In this document: positions 17,251 to 34,362 of the stretch, one piece after another
How positions within the stretch are numbered: the first letter of the stretch is position 1
How the letters are laid out: every line of letters begins with the position of its first letter
Source of the DNA: Primorskyibacter sedentarius
GTDB taxonomy: Bacteria; Pseudomonadota; Alphaproteobacteria; Rhodobacterales; Rhodobacteraceae
Assembly (NCBI RefSeq): GCF_004342065.1
Contig: NZ_SLZU01000003.1
Span: forward strand, 62,001 to 126,000
Reading direction: 5' to 3'
DNA length: 64,000 nt
Translations under genes and position numbers: made by a program
The notes under the pieces: model-generated
Told to the model about the DNA's origin: nothing
What the model saw: the letters and a program-made list of their open reading frames with translations, nothing else
Databases searched by the model: none

Positions 17251-17279
17251 ATCATCGCCACTCCGTTCAGATCAGGATA

Positions 17280-17312
17280 GGGGCGTCCGCTGGGGAGGGA
17301 AGCGGACGCCCC
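17280..17312 (-). terminator. Stem-loop after the family 5 binding-protein gene
   Basis: A perfect 12-base inverted repeat (GGGGCGTCCGCT and AGCGGACGCCCC) around a nine-base loop, lying between the binding-protein stop (17329) and the permease start (17250). It has no long T-run, so it is better read as an attenuator or mRNA-stabilising hairpin that keeps binding-protein mRNA in excess over the rest of the operon than as a full terminator. Confidence 0.75.
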
Positions 17313-17328
17313 CGGGAGGTACTTCGCG

Positions 17329-19248
17329 TCAGGGCAGGTTAGTGCCACCTTCGAAGTACATCTGCGCCGTGTAGGGCGCAGGGAACCACAGCTGTCCGGC
17401 GATGGGCAGCGGGTTGGGCACATTGCGCACATTGTTCCGCGCGATGCCGAAGACCGGGTCATTCTGTACCATACCGATGGTGAAGAACTGCTCGGCCGCC
17501 ATGTCCAGCACCTTTTGCATCAGCTCTTTCTGAGCTTCCGGCGTCGCGGCAGAGCGGACCTGGTTATAGGTGTCGAAGATGTCCTTCACCTCTTGCGGCG
17601 GCTCTTCGCCGGTCGAAGGATCAACCCCCCAGGCCGCCCATTCGCGCGCCCAGCTGACAGAGTTGGAAATCGTCGGCACGTAGCAGATCGGCGTCAGGTA
17701 AGCATCCGCCTGACCACCCGAGCAATTCCACAGATAGGCGTCGAAATCATTCGAGGTGTGCAGCTCGATCAGGCGCGACCGGTCCGTGGTGCGGATCTGG
17801 AAATCAAGCCCGACATCGGCGGCATAGCCTGCGATCAGCTCCATCGCGTCGGGGTATTGCAGGCCGAAGACATCCGCCACCAGAAAGACCATGGTGAAGC
17901 GTTCGCCATCCGGGCCAAGACGGTACCCATCCGCGTCCTTTTCGGGCAGCACCTTGTCGAGATACGCGTTCGCAAGGTCTGTGTCATACTCGGTATATTG
18001 CTTGGCGTATTCTTCTTTATAAAGGTCCGAACCTTCGCGCGGCGCGGTCTGCGCCGGTGTCCCTGCCCCGAAATACAGCAGGTCGATCACTTCCTGCCGG
18101 TTCATCGCGTGGCTGACCCCGATGCGGAAATCCTTGTTGTTGATAACTTCGCGCTTCAGCGGGTCGGTATGGTTGAGGTTCATCATCAGGATCATGATAT
18201 TCGCAGGCAGATCGCCCACGTCGAAGAACCCGTATTTGCCGCGTTCCATGTTGTCAGTCAGCGAGGCCTTGTTCGACGGGCGCCCCAGATGGCGCAGCAT
18301 GTAGTCGATCTCGCCATTGAAGGCCTTCAGCAGGATCGTCTCCACATCCTCGACCTGATCATAGGTGATGCGGTCGATGTAAGGCAGCTGCTGCCCCTGG
18401 CTGTCGACCTTGTAGTAGTAGGGGTTGCGCTCTGCGATCACGCGGTCGGTCGCGCCATAGGCATTGGTCAGGTGCCAGGCATGCAGCGTCGGCCGGTCCG
18501 GGTTCTGCCAGAACAGCGGCGTGTCCATCGGCCCTGCCTTGAGGTTGAAGAGCTGCACCCAGTCCCCCACGGTCGGCTCCGCCTCTACCAGCGCCTGCAC
18601 ATCATCATTGTACTTTGGCATGAACTGGCTGAGGTAATGCTTGGGATAGGCGGTGGCGTGATAGCCAAAGCCATAAGCCAGCGCCTGAAGGAACAATCCG
18701 TTGGGCGCGCCGAAATCAAATTCGACAGTGACATCATCGATCTTGGAAATCTTCACCGGGCCGACGGGCCCGACAAAAGTGGAATCCTTGTTCGGCGTCA
18801 ATGCGGCATCGCTGAAAACGTCTTCGTACCAGAACATGATGTCATCGGCGGTAAACGGCGCGCCGTCCGACCATTTCATCCCCTCGCGCAGATGAAAGGT
18901 GAATTTTGAGGCGTCATCGGACACATCCCAGGATTTCGCGATATTGGGACGAACCTCGCTCCAGTCCGGGGACCAGCGCACCATGTTGTCGCTGCCGATG
19001 GTGCGCACCATGTTGTGCTGGTCGCCACCGCCCAGAATGGCGCGGCGCAATGTGCCGCCATACTCGCCCGGCCCTTCGATCACATCCATCAAGAGTGGCT
19101 CGGCAGGCAGCCGTTCATCAACCGGCGGCAAACTGCCCGCGGCGACCTGTTCGGCCAGTTGCGGGGCTTCCTCCCAGGCGGCGGCCTGTCCGGCCACCGC
19201 AATCGCGATGACGCTGGCCAGCGTCGTCCACTTCCTCTTCGTCAACAT
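17329..19248 (-). CDS. Family 5 extracellular solute-binding protein
   Basis: A 639-residue periplasmic binding protein. The start at 19248 follows a very strong AAGGAGGAGG site and gives a clear Sec signal peptide: MLTKRKWTTLASVIAIAVAG, cleaved after GQAAA. The mature protein has the family 5 signature region WSPDWSEVRPNIAKSWDVSDDASKFTFHLREGMKWSDGAPFTADD in short blocks, shared by dipeptide, nickel and certain oligosaccharide binders. At about 640 residues it is longer than dipeptide binders (about 530) and in the range of the sugar-binding AgpA type from rhizobia (alpha-galactosides). Lying directly after a sugar-acid dehydratase gene (28 bases), it more likely binds an oligosaccharide or sugar-acid oligomer than peptides; that is inference. 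Confidence 0.9.
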   Translation of the reverse strand: MLTKRKWTTLASVIAIAVAGQAAAWEEAPQLAEQVAAGSLPPVDERLPAEPLLMDVIEGPGEYGGTLRRAILGGGDQHNMVRTIGSDNMVRWSPDWSEVRPNIAKSWDVSDDASKFTFHLREGMKWSDGAPFTADDIMFWYEDVFSDAALTPNKDSTFVGPVGPVKISKIDDVTVEFDFGAPNGLFLQALAYGFGYHATAYPKHYLSQFMPKYNDDVQALVEAEPTVGDWVQLFNLKAGPMDTPLFWQNPDRPTLHAWHLTNAYGATDRVIAERNPYYYKVDSQGQQLPYIDRITYDQVEDVETILLKAFNGEIDYMLRHLGRPSNKASLTDNMERGKYGFFDVGDLPANIMILMMNLNHTDPLKREVINNKDFRIGVSHAMNRQEVIDLLYFGAGTPAQTAPREGSDLYKEEYAKQYTEYDTDLANAYLDKVLPEKDADGYRLGPDGERFTMVFLVADVFGLQYPDAMELIAGYAADVGLDFQIRTTDRSRLIELHTSNDFDAYLWNCSGGQADAYLTPICYVPTISNSVSWAREWAAWGVDPSTGEEPPQEVKDIFDTYNQVRSAATPEAQKELMQKVLDMAAEQFFTIGMVQNDPVFGIARNNVRNVPNPLPIAGQLWFPAPYTAQMYFEGGTNLP

Positions 19249-19276
19249 CAGGTTTCCTCCTCCTTGTTGATTGGGT

Positions 19277-20431
19277 TCACCAGTTGGTGACCGAGCCGTC
19301 CGGCCGCGACAGATGCGGCGGTTCGACATGTTCGGGCCGGGTGGCCCGTATCTTCGCCTCGTCCACCTCGACGCCCAGACCGGGGCGGTCGGGTACCTTG
19401 TAGGTGATCCCGTCAAGCGGGATCTGGACGGGAAAGAGTTCGGGGTCGTGAAAGCCAAGGCTCTCTGTGGGGCCCTGGCGCGTCTCGACCCAGCTGAAAT
19501 TCGGCACGGCAGCCGCCATATGGATCGTCGCGGCCGTGCAGACCGGACCCAGCGGGTTATGCGGCATCAGGTCGATGTAATGCTGCTCGCACCAGCCCGC
19601 GACTTTCATCGCCTCGGTGAAGCCGCCAATGTTGCAGATATCGAGCCGCATATACTGGGTCAGCCCTTCTTCGATATAAGGCGCCGCCTCCCATTTGGAG
19701 GAGAACTCCTCGCCGATCGCGAAGGGGACATTGGTCATCGCGCGCAGCGTCCGGTAGGCTTGTGGCGTCTGACACCGGATCGGCTCTTCCAGAAAATCGA
19801 GCGTGCCTGCAGGCAACCGGTTCAGGAAATCCGCGGTCTCCGCGATGGACAGCCGGTGATGCAGATCGATGCCAAGACATAGATCGGGGCCAAATTCATC
19901 ACGTATAGCGACGAGTTCCCTCACCGCGCGGTTCAGGTTCTGGCGCGGATCAAACGTGGCATCGCCGTCAAACTCGCCAGTATAGATCCGCAGGCAATCC
20001 CAGCCCGCATCCACCAGCACCCGCGCCTTGCCCAGCAACTCCTCGATCGTGGCGCCCTGGCAGCTTGGAAAGGTCGGGATTTCGTCGCGCTGCTTGCCGC
20101 CCAGCAGCTGGTAGACTGGCACTTCCAGCCGCTTTCCAAGGATATCATAAAGGGCGATATCAATGGCCGACATGGCAGCGGTCAGCACGCGCCCGCCTTC
20201 GAAATACTGGCTGCGATAGGCTTCCTGCCAGATACGGCCAATCTGGCGTGAATCCTTGCCCACAAGGAATTCCGCGAAATGGGTGATAGCGGCGGCCACG
20301 GCATCCTCGCGGGCGGACAGGCCAGATTCCCCCCAACCGAACAGCCCATCCTCTGTTGTGACCTTGACCAGCAACTGATTGCGGATGCCGACGCGGGCCA
20401 AAAGAGGTTCGATGGAAGCGATCTTGGACAT
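19277..20431 (-). CDS. Enolase-superfamily sugar-acid dehydratase (galactonate dehydratase-like)
   Basis: A 384-residue member of the mandelate racemase/muconate lactonising group of enolases. The capping domain occupies the first 120 residues; in the barrel the Mg ligands are visible as Asp in GIDLHHRLS, Glu in FLEEPI and Glu in AIGEEFSSKWE, and a catalytic His occurs in MPHNPLGP. The second barrel strand reads LRIYTG rather than a KxK motif, which resembles D-galactonate or D-mannonate dehydratases and not mandelate racemase. It should dehydrate an aldonate or related acid to a 2-keto-3-deoxy product. It is the first gene of the leftward transporter operon. Confidence 0.85.
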   Translation of the reverse strand: MSKIASIEPLLARVGIRNQLLVKVTTEDGLFGWGESGLSAREDAVAAAITHFAEFLVGKDSRQIGRIWQEAYRSQYFEGGRVLTAAMSAIDIALYDILGKRLEVPVYQLLGGKQRDEIPTFPSCQGATIEELLGKARVLVDAGWDCLRIYTGEFDGDATFDPRQNLNRAVRELVAIRDEFGPDLCLGIDLHHRLSIAETADFLNRLPAGTLDFLEEPIRCQTPQAYRTLRAMTNVPFAIGEEFSSKWEAAPYIEEGLTQYMRLDICNIGGFTEAMKVAGWCEQHYIDLMPHNPLGPVCTAATIHMAAAVPNFSWVETRQGPTESLGFHDPELFPVQIPLDGITYKVPDRPGLGVEVDEAKIRATRPEHVEPPHLSRPDGSVTNW

Positions 20432-21136: not shown

Positions 21137-21904
21137 TTAGCGGCCCATCCAGCCACCGTCGACCGTCAGGATTTCGCCGTTGACGTAATCAGAGGCCGGA
21201 GAGGCAAGAAAAACGACCGGACCGGCAAAGTCTTTCGGGGTCCCCCAACGCCCCTGCGGGATACGTTCGAGTATGGATTTCGACCGGTCGGGATCGTCCT
21301 GCAAGGCCTGGGTGTTGTCGGTCGCGATATAGCCCGGCGCGATTGCGTTGATGTTCACGCCCTTGCCCGCCCATTCATTGGCCAGCGCCTTGGTCAATTG
21401 ACCAATCCCGCCCTTGGAGGCCGCATAGCCCGGCACCGTGATCCCCCCCTGAAAGGTCAGCAGCGAGGCCGTGAAGATGATTTTGCCGCTCCCCCGTTCG
21501 ATCATGCCGCGCCCGATCTCGCGGCTCAGCACGAATTGTGCCGAAAGGTTGACCTCGATCACCTCGTCCCACCAGTCGTCGGGATGTTCGGCCGCAGGCT
21601 TGCGTTTGATCGTGCCGGCATTGTTGATCAGGATGTCCGGCTTCACCCCATCCGCGTCAAGCTGCGCGGCCAGTGCCTGCACGGCTGCACGGTCAGAGAA
21701 GTCGCATTGATAGGGTGTGAACTTGCGCCCCAACGATGTGACGGCCTGCTCCACATCCGATCCCGGCTGCAGGGAGGCGCTGACGCCCACGATATCGGCC
21801 CCGGCCTCGGCCAGTGCTTCGGCCATGCCGCGGCCAATCCCACGCTTGGCGCCGGTGACAACGGCGGTCTTTCCGGACAGATCGAAACTGGACAACACGC
21901 TCAT
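21137..21904 (-). CDS. kduD: SDR dehydrogenase, 2-deoxy-D-gluconate 3-dehydrogenase / KduD-like
   Basis: A 255-residue classical SDR with an intact active site: TGAKRGIG nucleotide motif (residues 17-24), NNAG, Ser in the IIFTASLLTF strand, and the pair Tyr and Lys in GYAASKGG. The length and sequence (FDLSGKTAVVTGAKRGIGRGMAEALAEAGADI, then the C-terminal SDYVNGEILTVDGGWMGR) fit KduD, which interconverts 5-keto and 2,5-diketo-3-deoxy sugar acids. It is the last gene of the leftward YtfQRT operon and overlaps the alcohol dehydrogenase gene by four bases. It likely oxidises the product of one of the two dehydratases. Confidence 0.85.
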   Translation of the reverse strand: MSVLSSFDLSGKTAVVTGAKRGIGRGMAEALAEAGADIVGVSASLQPGSDVEQAVTSLGRKFTPYQCDFSDRAAVQALAAQLDADGVKPDILINNAGTIKRKPAAEHPDDWWDEVIEVNLSAQFVLSREIGRGMIERGSGKIIFTASLLTFQGGITVPGYAASKGGIGQLTKALANEWAGKGVNINAIAPGYIATDNTQALQDDPDRSKSILERIPQGRWGTPKDFAGPVVFLASPASDYVNGEILTVDGGWMGR

Positions 21905-22935
21905 GCGACCTCTCCCACCTTGATAAGGCTCTTCAATGCGGTCGGGCTGGAATCGAGGCTTTCGAACGCCTGCTGGATGTCACCCAGCGGGCTGACATCG
22001 GTGATCACCGTCTCGGCGTCAATCGCGCCGCTTGCCACAAGCTCTATCGCCTTGTCGTAATCCTGCGGCTCGTAGACCCGCGCACCGATCAGCTTCAGCT
22101 CGCGCCAGAAGAACTGGAACATGTCGACCTGCGGCTTCGTGGCGTGGATGGCCACCATGACGATACGCGCGCGCGTGGCGGCCACTGCCGTCATCGCATC
22201 AACACCGGGCTGGCTGCCGGACACCTCAAAGACCACATCCGCGCCCTTGGTGCCGGTGCGCTCTTCGATCACCGCCTTAAGGTCCTCTTTCGCCGGATTG
22301 ACCGTGTCAAAGCCAAGTTTGCGCGCAATGCCCAGACGGGTCTCGTTCACCTCTGACAGGATGACATTGCCGCCCGCGTCACGCGCAACCATCGCGACCA
22401 GAACGCCGATGGGGCCACCGCCGATCACCACCACATCCTCGCCCGGCTGAACGTTGGCCATGCGCACATCGTGGCAGGCGACGGCCACCGGCTCGATCAG
22501 CGCGGCGTGGTCCAGCCGCATCCCCTCGGGCAGCACGTGGAGCGTGTGCGCAGGCGCGTTCCACAGCTCCTGCATCGCGCCATCCGTATCAAGGCCAAGA
22601 AATTTCTGCTTGTGACAGATGTGGCTGTGCCCGCGCTGACAGGCGGGGCATTCCCCGCAAGGGTCCAGCGGGCGCACGACGACATGCTGGCCGGGCGTCA
22701 CGTTGGTTACACCCTCGCCCACAGCCTCGACCACGCCGGACATTTCGTGTCCGACGATCCGGTTCAGCCCCACGCGCGCATCCATATTGCCATGGAACAC
22801 GTGCATGTCCGTGCCGCAAATGCCGCAATAGGCAATGCGCAGCTGCGCCTCGCCCGCAGCGGGGGGCGGGACATCGGTCTGTTCAACCTTGAAGGTGCGG
22901 TCTCCGCGGTAGAACGCGGCGTTGATCGTCGTCAT
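21901..22935 (-). CDS. Zinc-dependent medium-chain alcohol/polyol dehydrogenase
   Basis: A 344-residue MDR enzyme. The catalytic zinc site residues are Cys in [12 protein letters not shown], His-Glu in VGHEMSGVV, and the structural zinc cysteines lie in [17 protein letters not shown]. The NAD-binding motif is GGGPIG near residue 170. It belongs to the sorbitol/threonine dehydrogenase-like group and should oxidise a secondary alcohol of a sugar or sugar acid. It overlaps the neighbouring genes on both sides by four bases, so it is certainly part of the operon. Confidence 0.88.
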
Positions 22936-24029
22936 CTGTGCATGTCCTCATGTGCTGCGTGCAATTTGTCCCAGTCGAACACCACGCCCGTTCCAGGCGT
23001 ATCCGGTGCGACGGCCCTGTGATCCTCGACCACCAACGGGCGGGTGGTGTATGTGTCGATGGGGAAGGAATGGACCTCGATCCAGCCGCCCCCCTGCCCC
23101 GATACGAGGCTGACATGCAGTTCCTGCATGCCGTGGCTGCAGACCGGGATGCCATGCGCACGACCCAATTCCGCGACCTGCAACCACCCGGTGATGCCGC
23201 CACAATTCGACGCGTCAGGCTGAAGGTAGCTTAGCCCGGCCTCTGCCACCGCATGTTCGAATTCATGGATCGTGTGCAGGTTCTCGCCCATCGCCAGCGG
23301 CATTCCGGTGGCCTCGGCGATCCGGCCATAACCCTTGTAGTTGTCGGGAATGATCGGCTCCTCAAACCAGGTGATGTCATAGGGGGCGAAGGCATGGGCC
23401 GCCTCGATCGCCTGATCCTCTTCCATGGAATAGTTTGCGTCAACCATGAAGGTCACATCCGGCCCGATCAGCTCGCGCACGGCCTTGATGCGGGCCACGT
23501 CCTCGGCCAGCGTGGGTTGTCCGATCTTGATCTTCACCCCGTCAAAGCCACGGTCGAGATAGCCTTTGATACTGTCCAGCAGCTTGGGCAGCGGAAAGTT
23601 CAGGTCAATCCCGCCCGCATAGGCCCGGCAGCGATCCCCGGCAGCGCCCGCCATTTTCCAAAGCGGTCGGCCCGTCTGCTTGCCCCGCAGATCCCACAGC
23701 GCGATATCCACCGCCGAGATCGCGAAAGAGGCGATCCCGCCCCGCGCCACGTAATGCACGTGCCATTGCATCGCGTCATACAGCGCTTCGACATCATCCG
23801 CCGGTTTGCCTGTCAGAAACGGTGCAAGATCATGGTCGATCATCGCCGCAATCGCGCGCCCGCCCTTGCCGCCGGTATAGGTGTAGCCCGTGCCTTCGCG
23901 ACCGTCTTCCAGCGTTACGGTCGCGGTGACCAGTTCGAAATGGGTGTGATCCCCGTGTTTGGCATCGGTCAGAACCTCTGCCAACGGGACGTCAAACAGG
24001 CGGACATCGACCCGGCTGATCTTTGGCAT
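22932..24029 (-). CDS. Enolase-superfamily dehydratase/racemase (second copy type)
   Basis: A 365-residue mandelate racemase-like enzyme, distinct from the one at 19277. The second strand carries the KxK motif (VKIKIG), the Mg ligands are Asp in MVDANYS, Glu in WFEEPI and Glu in MGEN, and the opposite base is a His in CSHGM. This KxK plus His arrangement is typical for acid-sugar dehydratases or epimerases such as the talarate/galactarate type. The start is taken at ATG 24029, one base after the permease stop, with AAGGAG eleven bases before; the upstream Met at 24056 would overlap the permease. The substrate is not predictable, but it must be an acid sugar. Confidence 0.85.
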
Positions 24030-24030
24030 A

Positions 24031-25026
24031 TCAGTGAAGCTCCTTTTGTGCCGCACGTGCGAGGCGACTTTGCAGGATGATGACGGCGAACAGGAACCCT
24101 CCCCGGATCACCATCTGCCAATAGGCGCTGAGGCTGATCGTCCCGCGCCCGTTTTCAAAGTTCAGTATGTTGAATACCAGTCCCAGCAGCAATGCGCCCG
24201 CGACGGTTGCCGTGACCGACCCCATCCCACCGGTCAGCAGCGTGCCACCAACCACGACAGAGGCGATGGCCGAAAGCTCCCAGCCGACGCCTTCCAGCGG
24301 CTGCCCCGCGCCAAAACCCGAGGCCAAGAACACCCCGGCGAGCCCGGCGCATCCGCCGCTGAGGATATAGACGAAGGCTTTGGCCCGGGTGACATTCAGA
24401 CCCATCATCGCGGATGCGTCCTCCCCCCCGCCAATCGCCAGAACGACCCGCCCCAGAGAGCTGCGTTCCAGCACAATCCACAACGCGGCGACGACCAGCA
24501 CGGTGATGACAATCGTCCAAGGCAGGATACCCCAGACCTGTTCCATGCCAAGTTTCGTGAAGTTCGATGTCCAGTCGATGGAAATCGTCTGCGCGCCGGA
24601 AATCACCAGGGCGCCGCCTTTTGCGCCCAGCATGGTTGCCAGGGTGGCAATGAAGGGCGGTATGTTCATCGCCACCACGAAGAAGGCGTTGAGCGCCCCG
24701 AAAGCCAGCCCGGCCAGCACCGCCCCCGGCAGCGCCACCTGCAGACCCATTGGCGACAGGTATGCCGCCACCACCGATGTGAATGCCGCGACGGACCCGA
24801 CCGACAGGTCGATGCCGCCCGTCAGGATGACAAAGCACATGCCGACAGAGATCACGATGAACATCGCGTTGTAGTTCAGAAAGGACGAGATGTTATAGGC
24901 ACCGCCGAAATTCTCGTAACGCAGCACGCCAAAGACGATCAGCGCAATCAGGGCAAGCCAGACGCCATAGGAATGCCCGCCGCCCTGAAGATAGCGGCGC
25001 AGGTCAAATGCGGTATTGTCGAGCAT
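24031..25026 (-). CDS. yjfF: Sugar ABC importer permease (YjfF/RbsC-like)
   Basis: A 331-residue permease of the ribose/galactofuranose type with about ten helices; the signature [13 protein letters not shown] near residue 70 and the EAA-like [23 protein letters not shown] are present. With the permease at 25030 it forms the pair YtfT-YjfF of galactofuranose-like importers, and the two genes are three bases apart. It is directly followed by the enolase gene. Confidence 0.88.
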
Positions 25027-25029
25027 CGT

Positions 25030-26004
25030 TCAGTCCCTCCGGCCTTGTTGCAGGTAAACGGCACCGATGATGATCGCAGCCTTGGCGATCAGCGCCACCT
25101 CATCGGCGACGCCGTTCGCCAGCAATGTGTATTTCACCAACTGGATGATCACAGCGCCCAGAATGGCGCCAAAAATCGGGGCGCGCCCGCCTTGCAGAAG
25201 GGTTCCGCCGACGACGGCCGCTGCAATCGCGTCCAGCTCCATCAGGGACCCGATCCGCGCCGCGTCCGAGGCAGAGTTGATGGCCACCACGATCAGCCCG
25301 GCAAGGCCCGACAGGCCCGCGCAGATGACATAGGCGCCGATCTTGACCCTTTCGACCGGAATGCCGGACAGGCGCGCGGCGCGTTCATTGCCCCCCACGG
25401 CCAGCAATTGCCGCCCGAACATGGACCGCGTGACCAGCCACCACAGGACCAGCGCGATTGCCAGAACCAGCCAGCCCTGAAAGGGCAGGCCCAAAATCTT
25501 GCCGGTGCCAAGATAGCTGAAGGACGGGTTGGAAATGGTCTGCAGGTTGCCATTGGTCAACACCTGCGCCAACCCGCGCCCCGAGATGAAGAAGATCAGC
25601 GTTGCCACGATGGGCTGGACGTTGAAATAGCTGACCATGACCCCGTTGAAGATGCCGCAACACAGCGCGGCGAGGATCGGGATGATGATGGCCGCCGCCA
25701 GTCCCAGGCCGGGGTTGGCCAGCCCGAAGGGCGACAGGAAGATGAGAGGCGCCAGCGCGCCGGACAGGGCCATGATGGCGCCCACGCTCAGATCGATCCC
25801 GCCTGTCGCGATGACAATCGTCATCCCCATCGCCACGATTGCGATTGTCGCGACCTGACTGATATTCACGAACAATGTCTGCGTATGCAGAAAGTTCGGC
25901 GTGACGATCAGGTTGAAACAAAGGATCACCACCAGCGCCGCAAGGGCACCGTGGCGGGCCGGATCAAACCGGAACTGGCTGCATACAGTCGATGCCATGC
26001 TCAT
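25030..26004 (-). CDS. ytfT: Sugar ABC importer permease (YtfT/RbsC-like)
   Basis: A 324-residue permease with the same [13 protein letters not shown] motif (near residue 65) and a GIPVERVKIGAYVICAGLSGLAG cytosolic loop. Ten or so hydrophobic helices. It overlaps the ATPase gene by four bases (ATGA). Two different permeases in one operon is the YtfT plus YjfF layout, not the single-permease ribose layout. Confidence 0.88.
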   Translation of the reverse strand: MSMASTVCSQFRFDPARHGALAALVVILCFNLIVTPNFLHTQTLFVNISQVATIAIVAMGMTIVIATGGIDLSVGAIMALSGALAPLIFLSPFGLANPGLGLAAAIIIPILAALCCGIFNGVMVSYFNVQPIVATLIFFISGRGLAQVLTNGNLQTISNPSFSYLGTGKILGLPFQGWLVLAIALVLWWLVTRSMFGRQLLAVGGNERAARLSGIPVERVKIGAYVICAGLSGLAGLIVVAINSASDAARIGSLMELDAIAAAVVGGTLLQGGRAPIFGAILGAVIIQLVKYTLLANGVADEVALIAKAAIIIGAVYLQQGRRD

Positions 26005-27521
26005 GACGCCAACCTTTCGTGATGGTGGACCATGGCGCCGATCAAGGCGCTTTCGGTGATGCCGGGGTTCTGCAATTCGGTGACCGAATACCCGTCCTGC
26101 AACACAACGATGCGGTCGGCCCCTTCCACCAGCTCTTCGAATTCAGAGCTGATGAGCAAAACGGCCAGCCCCTTGGCCACCTGATTGCGAATGATCGATT
26201 GGATCTCGAACTTCGCGCCCACATCGACGCCGCGTGTGGGTTCATCAAGGATCAGGATCTCCGGCTCCAGCGCAAGCCAGCGCGCAAGCAAAACCTTTTG
26301 CTGGTTGCCGCCTGAAAGCTCGCGGATCGGTTGTTCCATCCCCGAGGTCTTGATCTGCAGCGCGTCGATATACCCCTGCACCAACTCGCGCTCCCGCGCC
26401 CTGTCGACCGCACCGAAACGGCGCAGCCTTGGCAGCAGGGCAAGCGTGATGTTCTCGCGCACGGACATGTGCGGGATGATGCCATCGGCCTTGCGATCCT
26501 CTGTCAGGAACCCCATCCCAAGCGCAATCGCCCGGGCGGGCGTGTCGATAACCGGCGCGGCATGGTGCCGAACCTCTCCGCGCAGCAGCTTGTCGAGGCC
26601 AAAGATCGCGCGGGCCGATTCCGTCCGGCCCGAACCCAGCAATCCGCCAAGGCCCACGATCTCGCCCTTGCGGATCTCGAAGGACACGTCGCGCAGCCCG
26701 GTCCGCGTGCCCAGCCCGTCAACCTCCAGCAAGGTGGCCCCGGGTTTTGACCGTTCCCCCGACAGCGCCGTCTGGCCGGCCGCCGCAATCTCGCTCGCAT
26801 CGCGCCCCAGCATTTCCGACACAAGGCCAAGCCGCGTCGTCTGGGCCACTTCATGCGTTGCGACCGTCCGCCCATCGCGCATGATGGTGACGCGATCGCA
26901 GATCTCGTAGAGCTCGCTGAGAAAATGCGAGATATAAAGAACCGCTACCCCGGATTTCTTCAACTCCCGCACGACCGAAAACAGCGTCTCGATCTCCTGA
27001 TCATCCAGCGAGGAGGTCGCCTCGTCCATGATGACAAGCCGTGCATCCAGCGACACTGCCCGCGCAATGGCGACAAGCTGCTGGATCGCCGTTGAATACC
27101 GGCCAAGCTGGCGCGTCACATCAATCTCGACGCCGAACCTTGCGAGGATCTCGCGCGTGCGGGCATGTGCGGCTTTCCAGTCGATCAGCCCCAGACGCGT
27201 GCGCGGCTCGTAGCCCATCATCACGTTCTCGGTGACGCTGCGAAGCGGCACCAGGCTGAGCTCTTGATAGATGGTGGAAATTCCGGCGTCCTGTGCCTCG
27301 CGCGGGGTCGAGATCGTCAGATCCTCGCCCGCCATCTGCACGCTGCCCTCATCCCGGCGGTAAACACCTGTGAGGATCTTGATCAGCGTGGATTTTCCGG
27401 CACCGTTCTGGCCGATGATGGCGTGCACCTCGCCGGGCCGGATCGCGAGGCTGGCATCGCGTAGCGCCACCACCCCGGCGAAGGCTTTGCCAATGCCGGA
27501 CATTTCGATGAGATCGGTCAT
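26001..27521 (-). CDS. ytfR: Sugar ABC importer, double ATP-binding protein (YtfR/RbsA-like)
   Basis: A 506-residue fused ATPase. The first half has Walker A GQNGAGKSTLIK and Walker B RLVIMDEATSSL; its signature region is weak (LGRYSTAIQQLVAIARAVS), and the second half has GLLGSGRTESARAI in place of a clean Walker A, with LSGGNQQKVLLARWL and LILDEPTRGVD. A degenerate second nucleotide site is normal for RbsA-like proteins. It energises the importer. It starts 58 bases after the binding-protein gene across a strong hairpin. Confidence 0.92.
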   Translation of the reverse strand: MTDLIEMSGIGKAFAGVVALRDASLAIRPGEVHAIIGQNGAGKSTLIKILTGVYRRDEGSVQMAGEDLTISTPREAQDAGISTIYQELSLVPLRSVTENVMMGYEPRTRLGLIDWKAAHARTREILARFGVEIDVTRQLGRYSTAIQQLVAIARAVSLDARLVIMDEATSSLDDQEIETLFSVVRELKKSGVAVLYISHFLSELYEICDRVTIMRDGRTVATHEVAQTTRLGLVSEMLGRDASEIAAAGQTALSGERSKPGATLLEVDGLGTRTGLRDVSFEIRKGEIVGLGGLLGSGRTESARAIFGLDKLLRGEVRHHAAPVIDTPARAIALGMGFLTEDRKADGIIPHMSVRENITLALLPRLRRFGAVDRARERELVQGYIDALQIKTSGMEQPIRELSGGNQQKVLLARWLALEPEILILDEPTRGVDVGAKFEIQSIIRNQVAKGLAVLLISSEFEELVEGADRIVVLQDGYSVTELQNPGITESALIGAMVHHHERLAS

Positions 27522-27579: not shown

Positions 27580-28554
27580 TCAATAGGCTTCGTCGATGTG
27601 ATCGGCGGCGTTTTCCTGCGTGAAAATGCGGTCTTCGACCTGCACCCAGCCCGGAATTTCCTCGCCCGCGGCGTATTTGTTCATCACCTCGCAGGCCAGC
27701 GGCCCAAAGAAGGGAGAGCTTTCGACCGTCACGCCCATCTTGCCGTCGATAATGGCCTGCAGCGCGTCCCGCGTGCCGTCGATGGACACGATGGTCACAT
27801 CCTCGCCCGGTTTGCGCCCGGCCAGTTCAAGCGCCTGAATCGCCCCAATCGCCATCTCGTCATTATGGGCGTAAACCACGTTCACATCGGGATGGGCCTG
27901 CAGAAGCGTCTCCATCACCTGCCGTCCCAGATCACGGGCAAAGTCGCCGGTCTGGCTCGCCACGATCTCGAACCGGTCATCCTCGGCGATGCGATCGTCA
28001 AAGCCCTTCTTGCGGTCATTCGCGGGCGACGACCCGGTGGTGCCTTCCAACTCGACAATCACACCCTTGTCGCCGTCAAAATTCTCGATCAACCACTCGG
28101 CCGCGCGTTTGCCCTGATCAATGAAATCGGACCCCAGGAAGGCAACAAAATGCTCGCCCGCCTTGGCGACGTTCGGATCAACCGACCGGTCCACAAGGAA
28201 GACCGGAATGCCCGCCGCCTTGGCCTTCATCACTGCAGGCAAAAGCGGCTTTTCCTCGCGCGGTGGAAGGAACAACACGTCAATGCCTTGCGCGATCATG
28301 GAATCCACATCCGCGACCTGCTTTGCGGCAGAGCCTGCGGCATCGGTCGCGATCAGGTCCCAGTTGCAGCTTTCGGCGGTGTCATGAAAGGATTTAGTCT
28401 CTGCAATACGCCACGGGTTGTTCGACTCCATCTGCGAAAAACCCACCTTGTAGCGCTCTTTCTGCGCCAGGGGCGGCGTCTCTGCCCCTGCGATCCCGGC
28501 ACCAAGTGCAAGTGCCCCGGCAAGGGCCGTCGTCACGATAAAACGTCGTTTCAT
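27580..28554 (-). CDS. ytfQ: Sugar ABC importer, periplasmic binding protein (YtfQ-like)
   Basis: A 324-residue type I periplasmic binding protein. The ATG at 28554 follows GGAGGAAA and gives a signal peptide MKRRFIVTTALAGALALG, cleaved after AGIAGA. The mature sequence opens YKVGFSQMESNNPWRIAETKS and carries VELEGTTGSSPANDRKKGF, both closely resembling the YtfQ galactofuranose binder and its relatives, while the ribose binder lacks them. The ligand is most likely a galactose- or galactofuranose-like sugar or an acid derivative of one; this is inference. Its gene is flanked by hairpins on both sides. Confidence 0.9.
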   Translation of the reverse strand: MKRRFIVTTALAGALALGAGIAGAETPPLAQKERYKVGFSQMESNNPWRIAETKSFHDTAESCNWDLIATDAAGSAAKQVADVDSMIAQGIDVLFLPPREEKPLLPAVMKAKAAGIPVFLVDRSVDPNVAKAGEHFVAFLGSDFIDQGKRAAEWLIENFDGDKGVIVELEGTTGSSPANDRKKGFDDRIAEDDRFEIVASQTGDFARDLGRQVMETLLQAHPDVNVVYAHNDEMAIGAIQALELAGRKPGEDVTIVSIDGTRDALQAIIDGKMGVTVESSPFFGPLACEVMNKYAAGEEIPGWVQVEDRIFTQENAADHIDEAY

Positions 28555-28578
28555 TCTGATTTCCTCCACTGTTGATAT

Positions 28579-28612: not shown

Positions 28613-30079
28613 TCAGGCCCAGTTCATGTAAAGGGCCTGCTTTCGCAGATACCCGTCGAAACCGTATTTGCCGTCCTCACCGCCCAGCCCGGAATGGCCC
28701 CAGCCATTGTGGAACGCCTGGAATTGCTCGCCATTCGCGCGGTTGACGTAGATTTCGCCGAAATTCAGCCGGTAGGGCGTCTGCATCAGGCGCCTGTGAT
28801 CCTGGGTGAAGATATAGGCGGACAGGCCGTATTCGGTGTCATTGGCAAGCTGTAGCGCATGGTCGAAATCATCCACGCGCACCGCGGGCACGACAGGGCC
28901 AAAAACCTCTTGCGCGATCACGGGGGAGTCGTTGTTTGCCAGCGACAGAACGGTGGGCGCGTACCAATGACCCTTGGCATATGGCCCCTCGGTCAGGGGG
29001 CCACCTTCCAGCAGAACCTCGGCACCGGCCGCGACTGCCGCGTCGACGATCGACTTCACCTTGGCCACTTCCGTCCCGCTGACCTTCGGGCCGATCCCCG
29101 GATCCGTCATCGGATCCCCGATGGTCAGCGCGCGCGAGGCGGCCACGAATTTCTCAAGAAATTCGTCGGCGATGTCGCGGTGCAGGTACATGCGTTCGTT
29201 GCAAGTGCAGATCTGGCCGCAATTGGTGTAGCGCGCGGTGACAGCCGCCGCGACCGCACGGTCGATATCGGCATCCTCCAGCACGATGAACGGGGCCTTG
29301 CCGCCCAGTTCCAGCCGCAGGACCTTCATCCCGTCAGCCGCCGTGCGAAAGATCTCTCGCCCCGCACGATTGCTGCCGGTCATGGTTATCATGCCCGTGC
29401 CCGGATGTTCGACCAGCGCCTGCCCCACAATGGGCCCGCGCCCGGACACCACGTTCACCACCCCCGGCGGAATGCCCGCCTGCTCGGCCAGGGCCGCGAT
29501 GAAAAGGCCCGAGAATGGCGTGATCTCATGCGCCAGCAGCACGAAGGCATTGCCTGCCACCAGAGCCGGGCCAAGCTTGCGGGCTGCAAGTGCTGCGGGA
29601 TAATTCCAGGCGGTCAGCCCGACCACGACGCCGTAGGGGTGGCGGCGGATGTGAATCTCTTCATCGCGATTGTCCGATGCGATGATATCGCCTTCGATCC
29701 GGCGCGCGTTCTCGGACGCGTATTCAAGGAAACCGACCGTCGCGCCGACCTCGCCCCGCGCCTGACCGATGGGCTTGCCCTGCTCGCGCGTGATCAGGCG
29801 GGCAAGATCCTCGCTGCGTTCCGCGATCAACCCGGCGAGCTTGCGCACGGCGCGGCCTCTTTCGACCGCCGGAACAGCGGCCCATCCGGGTTGCGCGCGC
29901 CGGGCCGCCTCGACCGCGCGCGCGGCATCTTCGGCAGAGCTGTCCGGAACCGTCCCGATCACCGTTTCGTCGGCGGGGTTTTCGACCTCGATCACCGCCC
30001 CTTGCGTCGCGGCGCACCAGCCACCACCGATAATATTTGCCGCATCCAGACGGTCGGCGGAAAAATCCAGATCAAGCAA
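28613..30079 (-). CDS. Aldehyde dehydrogenase (AldA-like) with altered cofactor-binding motif
   Basis: A 488-residue NAD(P)-dependent aldehyde dehydrogenase resembling lactaldehyde/glycolaldehyde dehydrogenase (NPADETVIGTVP opening; GQICTCNERMYLH catalytic region). Catalytic residues Asn159 (in AWNYP), Glu257 (in LELGGK) and Cys291 are in place. However, the conserved K-P-S-E cofactor stretch reads LAHE at 182-185, so the Lys that usually contacts the adenine ribose or phosphate is Leu182. The start is a TTG at 30079, with AAAAGGAA eight bases before it; that ribosome binding site overlaps a TGGT-N3-ACCA operator. It is divergent from the GMC oxidoreductase gene and heads the leftward sugar operon. 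Confidence 0.9.
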   Translation of the reverse strand: MLDLDFSADRLDAANIIGGGWCAATQGAVIEVENPADETVIGTVPDSSAEDAARAVEAARRAQPGWAAVPAVERGRAVRKLAGLIAERSEDLARLITREQGKPIGQARGEVGATVGFLEYASENARRIEGDIIASDNRDEEIHIRRHPYGVVVGLTAWNYPAALAARKLGPALVAGNAFVLLAHEITPFSGLFIAALAEQAGIPPGVVNVVSGRGPIVGQALVEHPGTGMITMTGSNRAGREIFRTAADGMKVLRLELGGKAPFIVLEDADIDRAVAAAVTARYTNCGQICTCNERMYLHRDIADEFLEKFVAASRALTIGDPMTDPGIGPKVSGTEVAKVKSIVDAAVAAGAEVLLEGGPLTEGPYAKGHWYAPTVLSLANNDSPVIAQEVFGPVVPAVRVDDFDHALQLANDTEYGLSAYIFTQDHRRLMQTPYRLNFGEIYVNRANGEQFQAFHNGWGHSGLGGEDGKYGFDGYLRKQALYMNWA

Positions 30080-30089
30080 AATCGATTCC

Positions 30090-30106
30090 TTTTGGTATGA
30101 CCAAAT
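30090..30106. promoter_or_regulatory. FCD-GntR operator candidate at the ald start
   Basis: TTTGGT-ATG-ACCAAA, a perfect 6-3-6 inverted repeat at 30091-30105, 11 bases before the aldehyde dehydrogenase start codon. TGGT-N3-ACCA is the half-site pattern of FadR-subfamily regulators such as PdhR and LldR. A near-identical site is at 30198. The nearby FCD regulator at 31870 is the likely ligand. Confidence 0.7.
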
Positions 30107-30197
30107 GAAATCTCAACATCAGATCAAAACCGCGAAACGTCAACGAATTTTTTCGACTTCCGCCAATATTTAAGCTAAACGAACCGATAGACGCTGT

Positions 30198-30214
30198 TTT
30201 TGGTAGAGCCAAAA
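30198..30214. promoter_or_regulatory. FCD-GntR operator candidate at the GMC gene start
   Basis: TTTTGG-TAGAG-CCAAAA, a perfect six-base inverted repeat with a five-base centre, ending nine bases before the ATG at 30223 and overlapping the AAAAGGA ribosome binding site. It matches the site at 30090 in TTTGGT and CCAAA. Binding here should block the GMC-regulator operon. Confidence 0.7.
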
Positions 30215-30222
30215 GGATCACA

Positions 30223-31842
30223 ATGTCAGAAGAATTCGACCATATCGTCATCGGGGGCGGCGCGGCCGGCTGTGTGGCCGCCGGGCGTCTGGCGTCAGAA
30301 GGCAATGCCCGCGTGCTCTTGTTGGAGGCGGGCTATTCCAACCGGCACCCTTTGCTGGATATGCCGCCGGGCATCTTCAAGATGATCAATGGCACGAAGT
30401 TCATGCGCTACCACAAGACGGTGCCGCAGGCGCATCTTGACGGACGTGTGCATGACATACCGCAGGGCCATGTTCTGGGCGGGGGGTCTTCCGTCAATGC
30501 GCAGGTCTACATGCGTGGGCGCCCATCCGATTATGACGGCTGGAACACCGCTCTGCATGGCAGCAACGATCCCGTCGATTGGAGCTGGCAGGCCGTGTTG
30601 CCGCATTTCCGGCGGATGGAAGGCAATAATCGGCTTCAGGATGAGCGGCATGGAACAGAAGGCCCGCTTCTGGTCTCTGATCCCGGCCACATCGACGGGC
30701 TCTCTCGGCTGTTCGTGCAGGCGGTGCAGGGGCTGGGCCTGCCCTTTACCCATGATTTCAACGGCCCCACCCAACGGGGGGTGGGGTTTTACCAGTTCAT
30801 GAACCGCAACGGCCGACGGTCCTCTGCGGCCTACGCCTATGTCACGCCGCAGGAAGACAACCCCAATCTGACAGTCCGGCTGGAGGCCGAGGTGGAACGG
30901 ATCATCATCGAAGGCAGCCGTGCGGTGGGTGTCAGCTATCGCCACAAGGGCCGCGTTCATAGCGTGCGCTGCGCGGGCGAGGTTATCCTTGCGGCCGGAT
31001 CTCTCGTGACGCCAAAGCTACTGATGCTGTCCGGGATCGGCCCGGCGGATCACCTGGCCGAAATGGGGATCGACTGCCGCGTTGATCTGCCCGGCGTCGG
31101 CCAGAACCTTGTCGATCACCCGGAAGTGCCGATCACCGCGCGGGTCAACGGGCCATATGGCTATTACCGGCAGGGCGAAGGCTGGCGCATGCTGCGCAAC
31201 GGGCTGCAGTTCAAGCTGTTCGGGACCGGGCCGGTCACTTCTGCCGGGGTGGAAGCCGGGGCGTTCGTCAATCCCTGCGACCCGGACGGCGAACCGACCA
31301 TTCAGGCATTCTGCGTGCCCATCGTCTATGTCGACCGCGACACCCGCGATCTGGTCGAGGATGGCCACGGGCTGACCGTCACGACCGTGGTGGTCAAACC
31401 GAAGTCGCGCGGCGAGGTCCGTCTTGCCTCTGCCGATCCCTCCGCCATGCCGCTGGTTTCGCCCAATCTGCTGAAGGCGCCCGAGGATATGGCCGAAATG
31501 ATCAGGGGCCAAAGGTATTTCCTGCGCGCCTTTGCCCAGTCACCGCTGGCGGAGAGGATCGATCGCGTGATGCTGCCCGCCCCGGATGATGACAGCGACG
31601 CCGCCCTGCGCAGGCATTGCAAACGCTTTGTGAAGACGAATTACCACCCGGCTGGCACCGCGCGCATGGGGCGCGACACCGATCCGATGGCGGTGCTTGA
31701 TCCGCGTCTGCGCGTCAGGGGGATTGAGGGCTTGCGCGTCTGTGACCTGTCCGCCATGCCCGACATCAATGCAGGAAACACGCAGGCGCCCGCAATGATG
31801 CTGGGGGACCGGTGCGCTGACATGGTGATGGGTATAACATGA
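30223..31842 (+). CDS. GMC-family flavin oxidoreductase (alcohol/choline dehydrogenase-like)
   Basis: A 539-residue FAD enzyme of the glucose-methanol-choline family. Visible: the ADP-binding motif VIGGGAAGCVAAGRLA at residues 9-24, the signature GGSSVNAQVYMRG near 87-99, LMLSGIGPADHL near 265 and, at the C-terminus, the catalytic His in YHPAGTARMG followed by Asn in GNTQAPAMM. There is no secretion signal, so it acts in the cytosol, perhaps membrane-associated. It oxidises a primary or secondary alcohol. With the divergent aldehyde dehydrogenase the obvious scheme is alcohol to aldehyde to acid; the substrate is unknown. It is followed by its regulator gene 27 bases downstream. Confidence 0.9.
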   Translation: MSEEFDHIVIGGGAAGCVAAGRLASEGNARVLLLEAGYSNRHPLLDMPPGIFKMINGTKFMRYHKTVPQAHLDGRVHDIPQGHVLGGGSSVNAQVYMRGRPSDYDGWNTALHGSNDPVDWSWQAVLPHFRRMEGNNRLQDERHGTEGPLLVSDPGHIDGLSRLFVQAVQGLGLPFTHDFNGPTQRGVGFYQFMNRNGRRSSAAYAYVTPQEDNPNLTVRLEAEVERIIIEGSRAVGVSYRHKGRVHSVRCAGEVILAAGSLVTPKLLMLSGIGPADHLAEMGIDCRVDLPGVGQNLVDHPEVPITARVNGPYGYYRQGEGWRMLRNGLQFKLFGTGPVTSAGVEAGAFVNPCDPDGEPTIQAFCVPIVYVDRDTRDLVEDGHGLTVTTVVVKPKSRGEVRLASADPSAMPLVSPNLLKAPEDMAEMIRGQRYFLRAFAQSPLAERIDRVMLPAPDDDSDAALRRHCKRFVKTNYHPAGTARMGRDTDPMAVLDPRLRVRGIEGLRVCDLSAMPDINAGNTQAPAMMLGDRCADMVMGIT

Positions 31843-31869
31843 CGCCGCAACCAACCACGGAGACCGGAT

Positions 31870-32586
31870 ATGGAGCATGACACCGACCGCAAGGACAGCC
31901 GCGCATCTGACGAGGTGGTCCGGCTGCTTTCGGCGAAAATCCAGTCCGGTGAGTACAGCGACGGCTCTCCCCTGCCCGCCGAACGCAGCCTGATGGAGGA
32001 GTTGGGGATCAGCAGGACCGTCGTGCGCGAGGCGGTTCAGTCCCTGTCAAAGCAGGGTCTTGTGGTTGCCCGCCCGCGCCACCGCCCCATCGTGCGCAAG
32101 CCCGGTTACGAGGCGGCAATCTCGGCGCTGGAATCGGTGGCCACCCATCTTCTGGACAACATGACCGGTGTCAGAAACCTGTTTGACACACGCATCATGA
32201 TCGAGGCGGCGCTGGTACGGCAGGCCGCCAAAGAGGCCAATCGCGAAGATATCGCCGCGCTGAAATCCGCACTGGAGGCGAACAGGGCCGCCATTGCCGA
32301 CAGCGACGAATTCTACCGCACCGACAATGCGTTCCATGGGGTTCTGTATGATATCTCGCGCAACCCGGTCCTTCCGTCGATCCACAAGGCCTACTCCACA
32401 TGGCTCGAGCCGCAATGGTCGCAGATGCCGCGCCTGCCAGAGAGGAACGAGGCGAATTACGAAGCGCACCGCCGCATTTTCGACGCCATTCTGCTACGCG
32501 ACCCCGACGCGGCCGAAGACGCCCTGCGCGAACATCTGAACAATGCGTGGAAGCAGGTCTGCCGAACCTTCGACGAACAGCCCTGA
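31870..32586 (+). CDS. FadR-subfamily (FCD) GntR regulator
   Basis: A 238-residue regulator. Winged helix with LPAERSLMEELGISRTVVREAVQSLSKQGLV (in parts), typical of FadR-like proteins, then an FCD domain with D and H ligands around TDNAFHGVLYD and EAHRRIFDAILLRDPD. It is the second gene after the GMC oxidoreductase and very likely binds the two TGGT-N3-ACCA sites in the divergent promoter (30090 and 30198), repressing both directions until an acid metabolite binds. This is inference from position and site type. Confidence 0.88.
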   Translation: MEHDTDRKDSRASDEVVRLLSAKIQSGEYSDGSPLPAERSLMEELGISRTVVREAVQSLSKQGLVVARPRHRPIVRKPGYEAAISALESVATHLLDNMTGVRNLFDTRIMIEAALVRQAAKEANREDIAALKSALEANRAAIADSDEFYRTDNAFHGVLYDISRNPVLPSIHKAYSTWLEPQWSQMPRLPERNEANYEAHRRIFDAILLRDPDAAEDALREHLNNAWKQVCRTFDEQP

Positions 32587-32742
32587 CGCCCCCCGCGTGG
32601 CAATGCGCCCACCACGCCCGCAGTTGCGCCCGCCGCAGACCGGGGTTGATTGGTTGGGCCACGCGCTAATCCCCCCAACCTTGTGCACGCATCTGTGCGG
32701 GCGTATCGGTTGGTCAAGATTGACGAATACAGGATCACCAAA

Positions 32743-34362
32743 GTGCCCGAGACAATCTCCCCGCTTGTACTGTTCCGCAATCAAACCTTCAGAATGCTGT
32801 GGGTGGCGGCACTTGCCTCCAACTTCGGCGGGCTGGTGCAGGCTGTCGGTGCTGGCTGGCTGATGACCTCGCTTTCCAGCTCTGAACGGATGGTGGCGTT
32901 GGTGCAGGGGTCGGTGACACTGCCGATCATGGTGTTTTCACTGTTGGCGGGCGTCTTCGCAGACAATTTCGATCGCCGCCTCGTCATGCTGATCGCGCAG
33001 GGGTTCATGTTCGCGGTCTCGATCGTCCTGACCGTTCTTGCCTATTTCGGCCTGCTGACCCCCTGGTCGCTTCTGGCCTTCACCTTTCTGATCGGGTGCG
33101 GCACGGCGCTGCACAACCCGTCCTGGCAGGCGACGATGGGCGATATCGTCAGCCGCGAGGAACTGCCCTCTGCCGTGTCGCTCAACAGCATGGGCTTCAA
33201 CCTGATGCGCAGCGTGGGGCCGGCGGCGGGCGGCGCTATCGTGGCGCTTGCCGGGGCGGCGGCGGCCTTTCTGGTCAATGCGCTCAGCTATATCGCGATC
33301 ATCATGGCGCTGTTCCGCTGGCGCGCCCCGGTGCGCGACACCCGCCTGCCCCCCGAGCCGATGGGCTCCGCCTTTGCCGCGGGCCTGCGCTATGTCGCGA
33401 TGTCGCCAAACCTGATCAGGGTGATCCTGCGCGGCTTTCTCTTCGGGCTGTCAGGAGTTGCCTTGCTGGCCCTTCTGCCCGTGGTCGTGCGTGTCACGCT
33501 GGACGGAAGCGCGCTGCTTTACGGCGCGATGCTGGGGTGTTTCGGCGCGGGCGCCGTGGGTGGCGCATTGCTGAACGCACATCTGCGGGCGCGCTTCATC
33601 AACGAACAGATCGCCCGCGGTGCCTTTCTCGGCCTCGCGCTGTGTTGCGGGATCGTCGGCCACAGCCCATACGCGCCGGTCAGCGGGGTGGCGCTGCTTC
33701 TGGGGGGCGCCTGCTGGGTTCTGGCGATGTCGATGTTCAACGTGACGGTGCAGCTGTCGACCCCCCGCTGGGTCGTCGGCCGCGCCCTTGCCCTGTTCCA
33801 GACCGGCACGTTTGGCGGCATGGCGATAGGAAGCTGGTTGTGGGGGGCCATCGCGCAGCATTCCAACCCCGGCACCTCCCTGACATGGGCGCTGGTGCTG
33901 CTTGTCGGCGGGGCGTTTATCGGCATGCGCCTGCCCTTGCCGGAATTCGGCACGCTCAATCTTGATCCGCTGAACCGGTTTCGCGAACCGGCATTGCGGC
34001 TGGACCTGAACTATCGCAGCGGGCCGGTGATGGTCATGGTGGATTATGTCATCGACCAAAGCGATGTTTCGGAATTCCTCGAAGCCATGAGCGAAAGGCG
34101 CCGCGTGCGGATCCGCGACGGGGCCCAGCAATGGACCTTGCTGCGGGATCTGGAAAAGCCAGAGCATTGGAGCGAAAGCTACCACGTGCCCACCTGGGGC
34201 GAATATGTGCGCCACAACCAGCGCCGCACCCATGCGGATGCCGCCCTGTCGGACCGCATTCGCGCGCTTCATCGTGCGCCGGGCCTGCCGACGGTGCATC
34301 GCATGATCGAACGTCAGACAGTTGCGCTGCATGACGACATGCGTCTCCAACCGAATGGCTGA
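32743..34362 (+). CDS. MFS transporter with C-terminal extra domain (PF05977-like)
   Basis: A 539-residue protein from the GTG at 32743 (AGGA ten bases before); the frame extends to 32650 without a better start. The first 400 residues are an MFS exporter with twelve helices and the loop FADNFDRRLVMLIAQ, resembling the EntS/transmembrane secretion effector group. From about residue 425 a soluble domain follows with VMVDYVIDQSDVSEFLEAMSERRRVRIRDGAQQWTLLRD, which looks like a ferredoxin-like antibiotic-biosynthesis-monooxygenase fold. Such tails are known in this MFS group. Export of a small molecule is probable; identity unknown. It is convergent with nadC. Confidence 0.85.
   Translation: MPETISPLVLFRNQTFRMLWVAALASNFGGLVQAVGAGWLMTSLSSSERMVALVQGSVTLPIMVFSLLAGVFADNFDRRLVMLIAQGFMFAVSIVLTVLAYFGLLTPWSLLAFTFLIGCGTALHNPSWQATMGDIVSREELPSAVSLNSMGFNLMRSVGPAAGGAIVALAGAAAAFLVNALSYIAIIMALFRWRAPVRDTRLPPEPMGSAFAAGLRYVAMSPNLIRVILRGFLFGLSGVALLALLPVVVRVTLDGSALLYGAMLGCFGAGAVGGALLNAHLRARFINEQIARGAFLGLALCCGIVGHSPYAPVSGVALLLGGACWVLAMSMFNVTVQLSTPRWVVGRALALFQTGTFGGMAIGSWLWGAIAQHSNPGTSLTWALVLLVGGAFIGMRLPLPEFGTLNLDPLNRFREPALRLDLNYRSGPVMVMVDYVIDQSDVSEFLEAMSERRRVRIRDGAQQWTLLRDLEKPEHWSESYHVPTWGEYVRHNQRRTHADAALSDRIRALHRAPGLPTVHRMIERQTVALHDDMRLQPNG

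Follow-up and report, generated by a model that had tools for sequence, protein, structure and literature searches.

A predicted FCD/GntR regulator-operator pair at a candidate 3,6-anhydro-L-galactose locus of Primorskyibacter sedentarius

In Primorskyibacter sedentarius, a minus-strand operon headed by an aldehyde dehydrogenase gene (ald) and a plus-strand unit headed by a GMC oxidoreductase gene lie back to back, with two palindromes between them. Which regulator would bind these palindromes, and which metabolism would it govern? Both questions were approached computationally in a window of 64,000 nucleotides, the term used here for the whole stretch of DNA analysed, and in related genomes. 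The palindromes are, in all likelihood, operators of the FCD/GntR repressor encoded at 31870-32586, which would govern genes for the use of 3,6-anhydro-L-galactose (L-AHG) and would be released by an acid of the pathway. Computation supports the presence of the sites, the conservation that they show, their dependence on the regulator and the gene content around them.

Two palindromes and a regulator gene

Two imperfect-to-perfect palindromes separate the back-to-back operons, at coordinates checked in the 64-kb window. The intergenic region and the plus-strand unit contain the following features:

30091-30105, no strand: operator site 1 (strong, predicted), TTTGGTATGACCAAA, that is, TTTGGT-ATG-ACCAAA
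30106-30198, no strand: spacer expected to hold both divergent promoters
30199-30213, no strand: operator site 2 (weaker, predicted), TTTGGTAGAGCCAAA, that is, TTTGGT-AGA-GCCAAA
30223-31842, plus strand: GMC flavin oxidoreductase, putative regulon member (PF00732, PF05199)
31870-32586, plus strand: FCD/GntR regulator, proposed repressor (PF00392, 62.3 bits; PF07729, 97.5 bits; both above the Pfam cut-off)

A sequence-only reading had placed palindromes at 30091-30105 and 30198-30214, at the starts of the two divergent genes, and both are found exactly there, the second in its longer form, TTTTGGTAGAGCCAAAA (30198-30214). The predicted TTG start of the aldehyde dehydrogenase (30079) lies 11 nt beyond the end of site 1, and the GMC gene has its ATG (30223) 9 nt beyond the end of site 2. 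Each site also extends into an AAAAGGA ribosome-binding sequence of its own gene, on the A-rich side, and the distance between the two sites is 108 bp. The TGGT-N3-ACCA core is exact in site 1; site 2 is one mismatch from TTTGGTNNNACCAAA and one base off this core, and is therefore not strictly a TGGT-N3-ACCA site. A consensus scan of the 30106-30198 spacer gave no match to the sigma-70 promoter consensus.

The protein encoded at 31870-32586 combines a GntR winged helix with an FCD domain, which bears out the earlier placing of a FadR-subfamily regulator in the GMC unit. It falls under the NCBIfam cut-offs of NanR (193.3 bits against 260), LldR (87.9 against 311) and two FadR models (43.3 against 189 and 42.4 against 249.2), and is therefore taken as an FCD/GntR regulator that is neither NanR, LldR nor FadR. 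In an alignment of 30 of the 32 ortholog rows (L016 and L021 left out), the helix-turn-helix residues R49 and R53 and R72 of the wing region are invariant in 30/30 sequences, as are D152, H156, H200 and H222 of the FCD domain. Judging by FCD structures, we take these last four residues to be a metal site. The genome encodes 32 FCD regulators in all; G295, of the same genus, is without this one, and the ortholog in G125 carries one in-frame TGA.

FadR-type regulators with TGGTNNNACCA sites are well known, and the operator of FadR has a core of this type. The operator of LldR is likewise given as a TGGTNNNACCA-type motif in the accessible part of one paper (PMC9600882). LldR and FadR resemble the window's system in operator core and winged-helix family, but they control other genes, and the window sites have extended TTTGGT...ACCAAA arms. 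The closest solved structure is that of NanR, an FCD/GntR protein that represses sialic acid genes in Escherichia coli (PDB 6on4, 118.7 bits), and the likeness lies in the FCD-type domain. In contrast to the single palindrome of the window, the NanR operator consists of GGTATA repeats. NanR also has a 32-residue N-terminal extension, of which the window regulator has little (the alignment begins at query residue 12 and NanR residue 32).

The motif in the genome and across relatives

Within the window, TTTGGTNNNACCAAA with at most two mismatches occurs four times, against 0.90 expected, a count reached in 2 of 100 shuffles; the looser TTTTGGN5CCAAAA also has four matches, against 1.74 expected (4 is reached in 11 of 100 shuffles). 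Across all 5,065,979 bases of the genome, no place other than site 1 matches perfectly, and site 2 is among seven that differ at one position. When as many as two mismatches are allowed, 103 places are found, compared with 87 for a reversed control pattern, and the weak genome matches are therefore mostly background.

Sites were also scored with a matrix built from ortholog sites, second sites included and the window's own excluded, which is not independent of the sites that it was built from. Site 1 scores 26.6, level with the top score among the ortholog sites, and site 2 scores 13.0; the operators are thus unequal and not the twins that had been claimed. The best of 48 other listed genome places (101 others exist in all) reaches 17.5, and eight of the 48 outscore site 2, so that site 2 could not be picked from the genome by its sequence alone. 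In its own intergenic region, however, site 2 scores above all 200 shuffles, and its position is meaningful despite its weak sequence.

A genome-wide search for further regulon members, which the sequence-only reading had called for, gave none that was convincing among the 15 regions inspected, with 50 of the 103 places listed, including all with zero or one mismatch. Ten of the 15 places lie within a long reading frame and five outside. Among the six highest of the first 30 scored, C16:91212, C5:89806 and C5:97262 are inside frames, and C2:145123 and C1:621602 are outside. The frames around the inspected places had no match to the relatives' regulon proteins at 1e-15, nor did the main frame of L127 at 1e-5.

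Two other places in the genome are of interest in their own right. At C2:145123 (L130, about 2024-2038), TTCGGTCAGACAAAA scores 16.1 and lies 40 nt before a 485-residue frame that has no Pfam match and adjoins an MTTB methyltransferase gene. On contig C27 (20500-27500; L129), a second FCD regulator is accompanied by four TTTGGTCYAYCCAAW sites, at 1111, 1144, 5509 and 5673 of the locus, and its neighbours are a 2-keto-3-deoxy-galactonokinase (DGOK), a 3-hydroxyacyl-CoA dehydrogenase-like gene and a TPP enzyme. This is probably a separate regulon with a near-identical operator, and because the operators are so similar, cross-talk between the two is possible.

Comparison across relatives provides the main evidence that the motif belongs to the regulator. 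Orthologs of the regulator (E at most 1e-60) are present in 22 of 295 genomes of the host's family, sampled as one genome per genus, and all 21 other genera with the regulator have 11 or 12 of the 12 motif positions in the locus (1.5 kb flanks). The intergenic regions of the window and 29 other loci, with limits set by hand from tblastn matches, contain a site of at least 11/12 in 30/30 cases, sixteen of them perfect. Left out of these regions were L034 and L038 (on the same contigs as L045 and L049), L040 (a locus with 166 bp of sequence ahead of the regulator), L042 (24% identity, Paenibacillus) and L029, whose site is 11/12; no site of 10 or more positions was found in the L040 and L042 loci. 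Class-wide, 3 of 385 genomes pass 1e-55 for the regulator, and L140, from another family, has an 11/12 site beside a regulator and a gene for 3,6-anhydro-L-galactonate cycloisomerase (ACI). Retention of the motif where the gene order is the same, on which the sequence-only reading had staked its claim, holds in six of six relatives with adjacent aldehyde dehydrogenase, GMC and GntR genes (L030, L031, L032, L041, L059 and L061), at 11 or 12 of 12 positions.

The ACI gene, which occurs in 55 of the 295 family genomes, offers the best control. Among the best 30 of these 55 ACI loci, the motif accompanies 11 of the 13 in regulator-positive genomes and none of the 17 in genomes without the regulator (Fisher p 1.4e-6). 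The 17 regulator-negative loci reach 8-9 of 12 positions at best, and no relative of the regulator of at least 50 bits was seen in them. Two regulator-positive loci lack the motif, L094 (the ACI of the window itself) and L106 (G007), and the sole explanation for them is their place deep in an operon that has the motif at its head. Conversely, ACI is found in 20 of the 22 regulator-positive genomes compared with 55/295 overall (p about 2e-14). The pattern TTTGGTNNNACCAAA is therefore very probably the operator of the protein at 31870, a prediction that draws on the sole perfect match in the genome, the 30/30 ortholog regions and the 11/13 versus 0/17 ACI loci, and the same tracking across genera favours the earlier pairing of this protein with the sites.

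Some genomes depart from the common arrangement. In G086 and G243, the regulator and perfect operators are present, yet ACI has no match at 1e-130; in their loci (L045, 8521-9383; L054, 8710-9527) the regulator orthologs are accompanied by a PfkB/KdgK-cluster gene, and the regulon there may serve another sugar acid. In G228, ACI and regulator are on different contigs, and the ACI gene still has two 11/12 operators upstream, at 1281 and 1410 of L113 (contig C29). This arrangement suggests control in trans, unless the assembly split one locus.

Gene content of the divergent units

All genes of the long operon are on the minus strand, listed here from its head:

28613-30079, minus strand: aldehyde dehydrogenase (ald), candidate 3,6-anhydro-L-galactose dehydrogenase (PF00171; best PDB match 6j75)
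27580-28569, minus strand: sugar ABC transporter substrate-binding protein (PF13407; best PDB matches include YtfQ)
26001-27521, minus strand: sugar ABC transporter ATPase (PF00005; YtfR-like, under cut-off)
25030-26004, minus strand: sugar ABC transporter permease (PF02653)
24031-25026, minus strand: sugar ABC transporter permease (PF02653)
22932-24056, minus strand: enolase-superfamily enzyme, candidate ACI (best PDB match 5xd7)
21901-22935, minus strand: Zn-dependent alcohol dehydrogenase, candidate 2-keto-3-deoxy-L-galactonate (KDGal) 5-dehydrogenase (PF08240, PF00107)
21137-21904, minus strand: KduD-like short-chain dehydrogenase (SDR), candidate 2,5-diketo-3-deoxy-L-galactonate (DDGal) 5-reductase (TIGR01832)

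The aldehyde dehydrogenase matches 6j75, recorded as aldehyde dehydrogenase A, at 491 bits, barely above 3k2w at 468 bits. We take 6j75 to be VejAHGD. With two scores so close, the enzyme was set aside as decisive proof of an AHG dehydrogenase; its sequence is compatible with that role and not decisive for it.

The cycloisomerase candidate is more informative. By sequence, the protein at 22932-24056 is a close relative of 3,6-anhydro-L-galactonate cycloisomerase, matching 5xd7 at 564 bits over 357 residues. The second distinct PDB enzyme is 2ovl (311 bits), which is probably Streptomyces coelicolor SCO3480, to judge by a primer in the accessible part of PMC9706016 that matches its first residues; the same part presents SCO3480 as an assayed ACI. 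The active-site residues listed there are present in the candidate, by eye on the alignment. No distinct PDB sequence beyond these two appears at 1e-60. DauB (5olc), described as a D-AHG cycloisomerase in the available portion of PMC5698469, is absent among these matches, and the L form is therefore favoured over D-AHG.

The remaining enzymes complete a recognizable order. The Zn-dependent alcohol dehydrogenase and the KduD-like SDR come after ACI here and likewise in many relatives; the SDR scores 325.6 bits with TIGR01832, under the cut-off of 338.85, and is 78% identical to its counterpart in L046. For Paraglaciecola hydrolytica, the proposed route, as set out in the accessible part of PMC5943477, runs through an L-AHG dehydrogenase, a cycloisomerase, a KDGal 5-dehydrogenase, a 5-reductase and a 2-keto-3-deoxygluconate (KDG) kinase. 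A KDG-kinase-like PfkB gene lies beside the regulator in ten relatives' loci (one checked by domain scan); in the window no such gene was found next to it, and the closest one elsewhere in the genome shares 43% identity with that of a relative. On these homologies, the minus-strand operon is best read as serving L-AHG catabolism after the published route of agar degraders. The sequence-only reading had spoken of alcohol oxidation joined to a sugar operon; that generic description gives way to this more specific one. A search of the genome for GH16, the sole agar-degrading family searched, gave one match, at most a candidate agarase.

Beyond the operon, the window contains a second MR_MLE gene (19277-20431), nearest to galactonate dehydratase and under the cut-off. 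It lies upstream of a same-strand peptide-type ABC transporter (open reading frames in 13143-19458, named by eye), and its nearest operator match with at most two mismatches is site 1, 9.7 kb away.

On the plus strand, the GMC gene is a putative member of the regulon. GMC genes lie within the cluster in the six relatives named above and near perfect sites in L043 and L046. A major facilitator superfamily gene at 32650-34362 was considered as a cluster member and rejected, as it is not beside the regulator in the relatives compared. Elsewhere, a TRAP transporter gene, DctP, has a site of at least 11/12 at its start in 9 of the 13 relatives' loci with DctP (of which L039 and L049 are both Neomegalonema). 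In L044, L050 and L052 the longest DctP reading frame begins at the site or 68 to 147 nt ahead of it, and the start was therefore taken as further in. In three of the remaining four loci, DctP follows the SDR gene within about 135 bp on the same strand; in L062, the SDR and DctP frames overlap.

Proposed mechanism, alternatives and meaning

What we infer from these results is that the regulator binds and that it represses rather than activates, and likewise the effector, the precise substrate and how far the long operon reaches. One regulator dimer would occupy site 1, the strong one, and a second the weaker site 2, covering the 5' ends of both transcription units and blocking them. One unit would run from ald through the sugar ABC transporter, ACI, Zn-dependent alcohol dehydrogenase and KduD-like SDR genes (30079 down to 21137), and the other would comprise GMC and gntR (30223-32586), so that the regulator would also control itself. 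Imported L-AHG would be oxidized to give 3,6-anhydro-L-galactonate or 2-keto-3-deoxy-L-galactonate, and one of these acids may enter the metal-holding FCD pocket and release the DNA. This last step is modelled on the action of N-acetylneuraminate in NanR, a zinc-binding repressor that, according to the accessible part of PMC8012715, binds zinc and its sugar-acid ligand together and is released by the sugar acid. Repression is the most economical reading, and silencing as the sign of control is plausible.

The weakness of site 2 bears on how much of this scheme is needed. Site 1 might be the sole working operator, with GMC and gntR run from it and site 2 a chance or decayed half-match. The score of site 2, less than half that of site 1 and exceeded by eight other listed places, speaks for this, as do the 7/30 ortholog regions that have no significant second site (a score reached by at most 5% of shuffles). 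Against it, second sites are significant in the other 23/30 regions, where about 1.5 are expected by chance, with the caveat that the matrix was partly trained on such sites, the window's excluded. Their distances recur, at 62-64, 73-76, 84-85, 107-108 and 138 bp, and the 107-108 bp spacing of the window is shared by four other loci of its operon type, L030, L031 and L041 (all Paracoccus) and L059. A single working operator is accordingly rather unlikely, though it deserves to be kept in mind. The same spacings enter the idea that the regulator is an activator, or a dual regulator that loops the DNA from one site to the other. The mean spacings of the classes fall near whole helical turns (for random phases at 10.5 bp per turn, P is 0.02 when five classes are used, 0.07 with four, and 0.019 with six, when the L058 pair at 85 bp, which is weak, and the L113 pair at 129 bp are added), a suggestive hint of cooperation or looping and not a proof: P ranges from 0.007 to 0.11 across the periods and classes tried, and the lineages are not independent. 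The position of the sites at the very start of both genes fits steric blocking instead, and activation or looping control seems unlikely. A bolder combination, which we regard as speculative and doubtful, is that the FCD repressor, sensing a sugar acid, bridges two helix-phased operators (about 6, 7, 8, 10 or 13 turns by lineage) and that GMC provides a new entry step, oxidizing an AHG-containing alcohol or glycoside before the dehydrogenase-cycloisomerase route, in an undescribed L-AHG regulon that belongs to this family of Alphaproteobacteria.

Who reads the palindromes can also be asked. The binder could be another of the 32 FCD regulators of the genome, or a factor that accompanies the regulator gene: TGGTNNNACCA is common to FadR-type regulators in general, seen for example with LldR in the accessible part of PMC9600882, and the second FCD regulator on contig C27 has its own four similar sites. 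Such a binder is nevertheless very unlikely, as the motif follows the 31870 ortholog from genus to genus and was found at none of the 17 ACI loci examined from genomes that do not have it, and the highest score among 29 of the 31 other FCD loci of the genome is no more than 9.8. Alternatively, the palindromes might act in the mRNA, as hairpins beside the ribosome-binding sites that control translation. Both overlap AAAAGGA and both can fold, as any palindrome can, but when the two leaders were folded they did little better than shuffles (z -1.05 and -1.37; 28 and 19 of 200 shuffles fold equally well), and in relatives the motif also lies away from start codons, for example 58 nt from the GntR gene in L059. 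Translational control was therefore rejected and appears extremely improbable.

The reading preferred here, operators of the 31870-32586 repressor governing L-AHG genes, can be set beside the L-AHG genes of Vibrio sp. EJY3, P. atlantica T6c and Paraglaciecola hydrolytica S66. The window has an ACI homologue and candidate homologues of the AHG dehydrogenase, KDGal 5-dehydrogenase and DDGal 5-reductase. Its cluster differs in having sugar uptake by an ABC transporter, together with a GMC oxidoreductase and an FCD/GntR regulator. For carrageenan (D-AHG) loci, a 'GNTR-like' gene is named in one figure legend in the available portion of PMC5698469. In the open-licence literature searched, as far as its accessible text goes, no paper on a GntR/FCD regulator of L-AHG use was found, and the 15-mer of site 1 itself had no match. 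As far as searched, the regulator and its regulon appear undescribed; the type of switch and the AHG enzymes are known.

L-AHG, a sugar of red seaweed, makes up agar together with one other main sugar. According to the accessible part of a 2024 review, the entry of L-KDGal into bacterial central metabolism still needs study (PMC11219438). The regulator-operator pair marks pathway genes in many genera and would thereby give a handle on AHG enzymes, transporters and accessory genes, here the GMC gene. The sites also supply a candidate AHG-responsive promoter.
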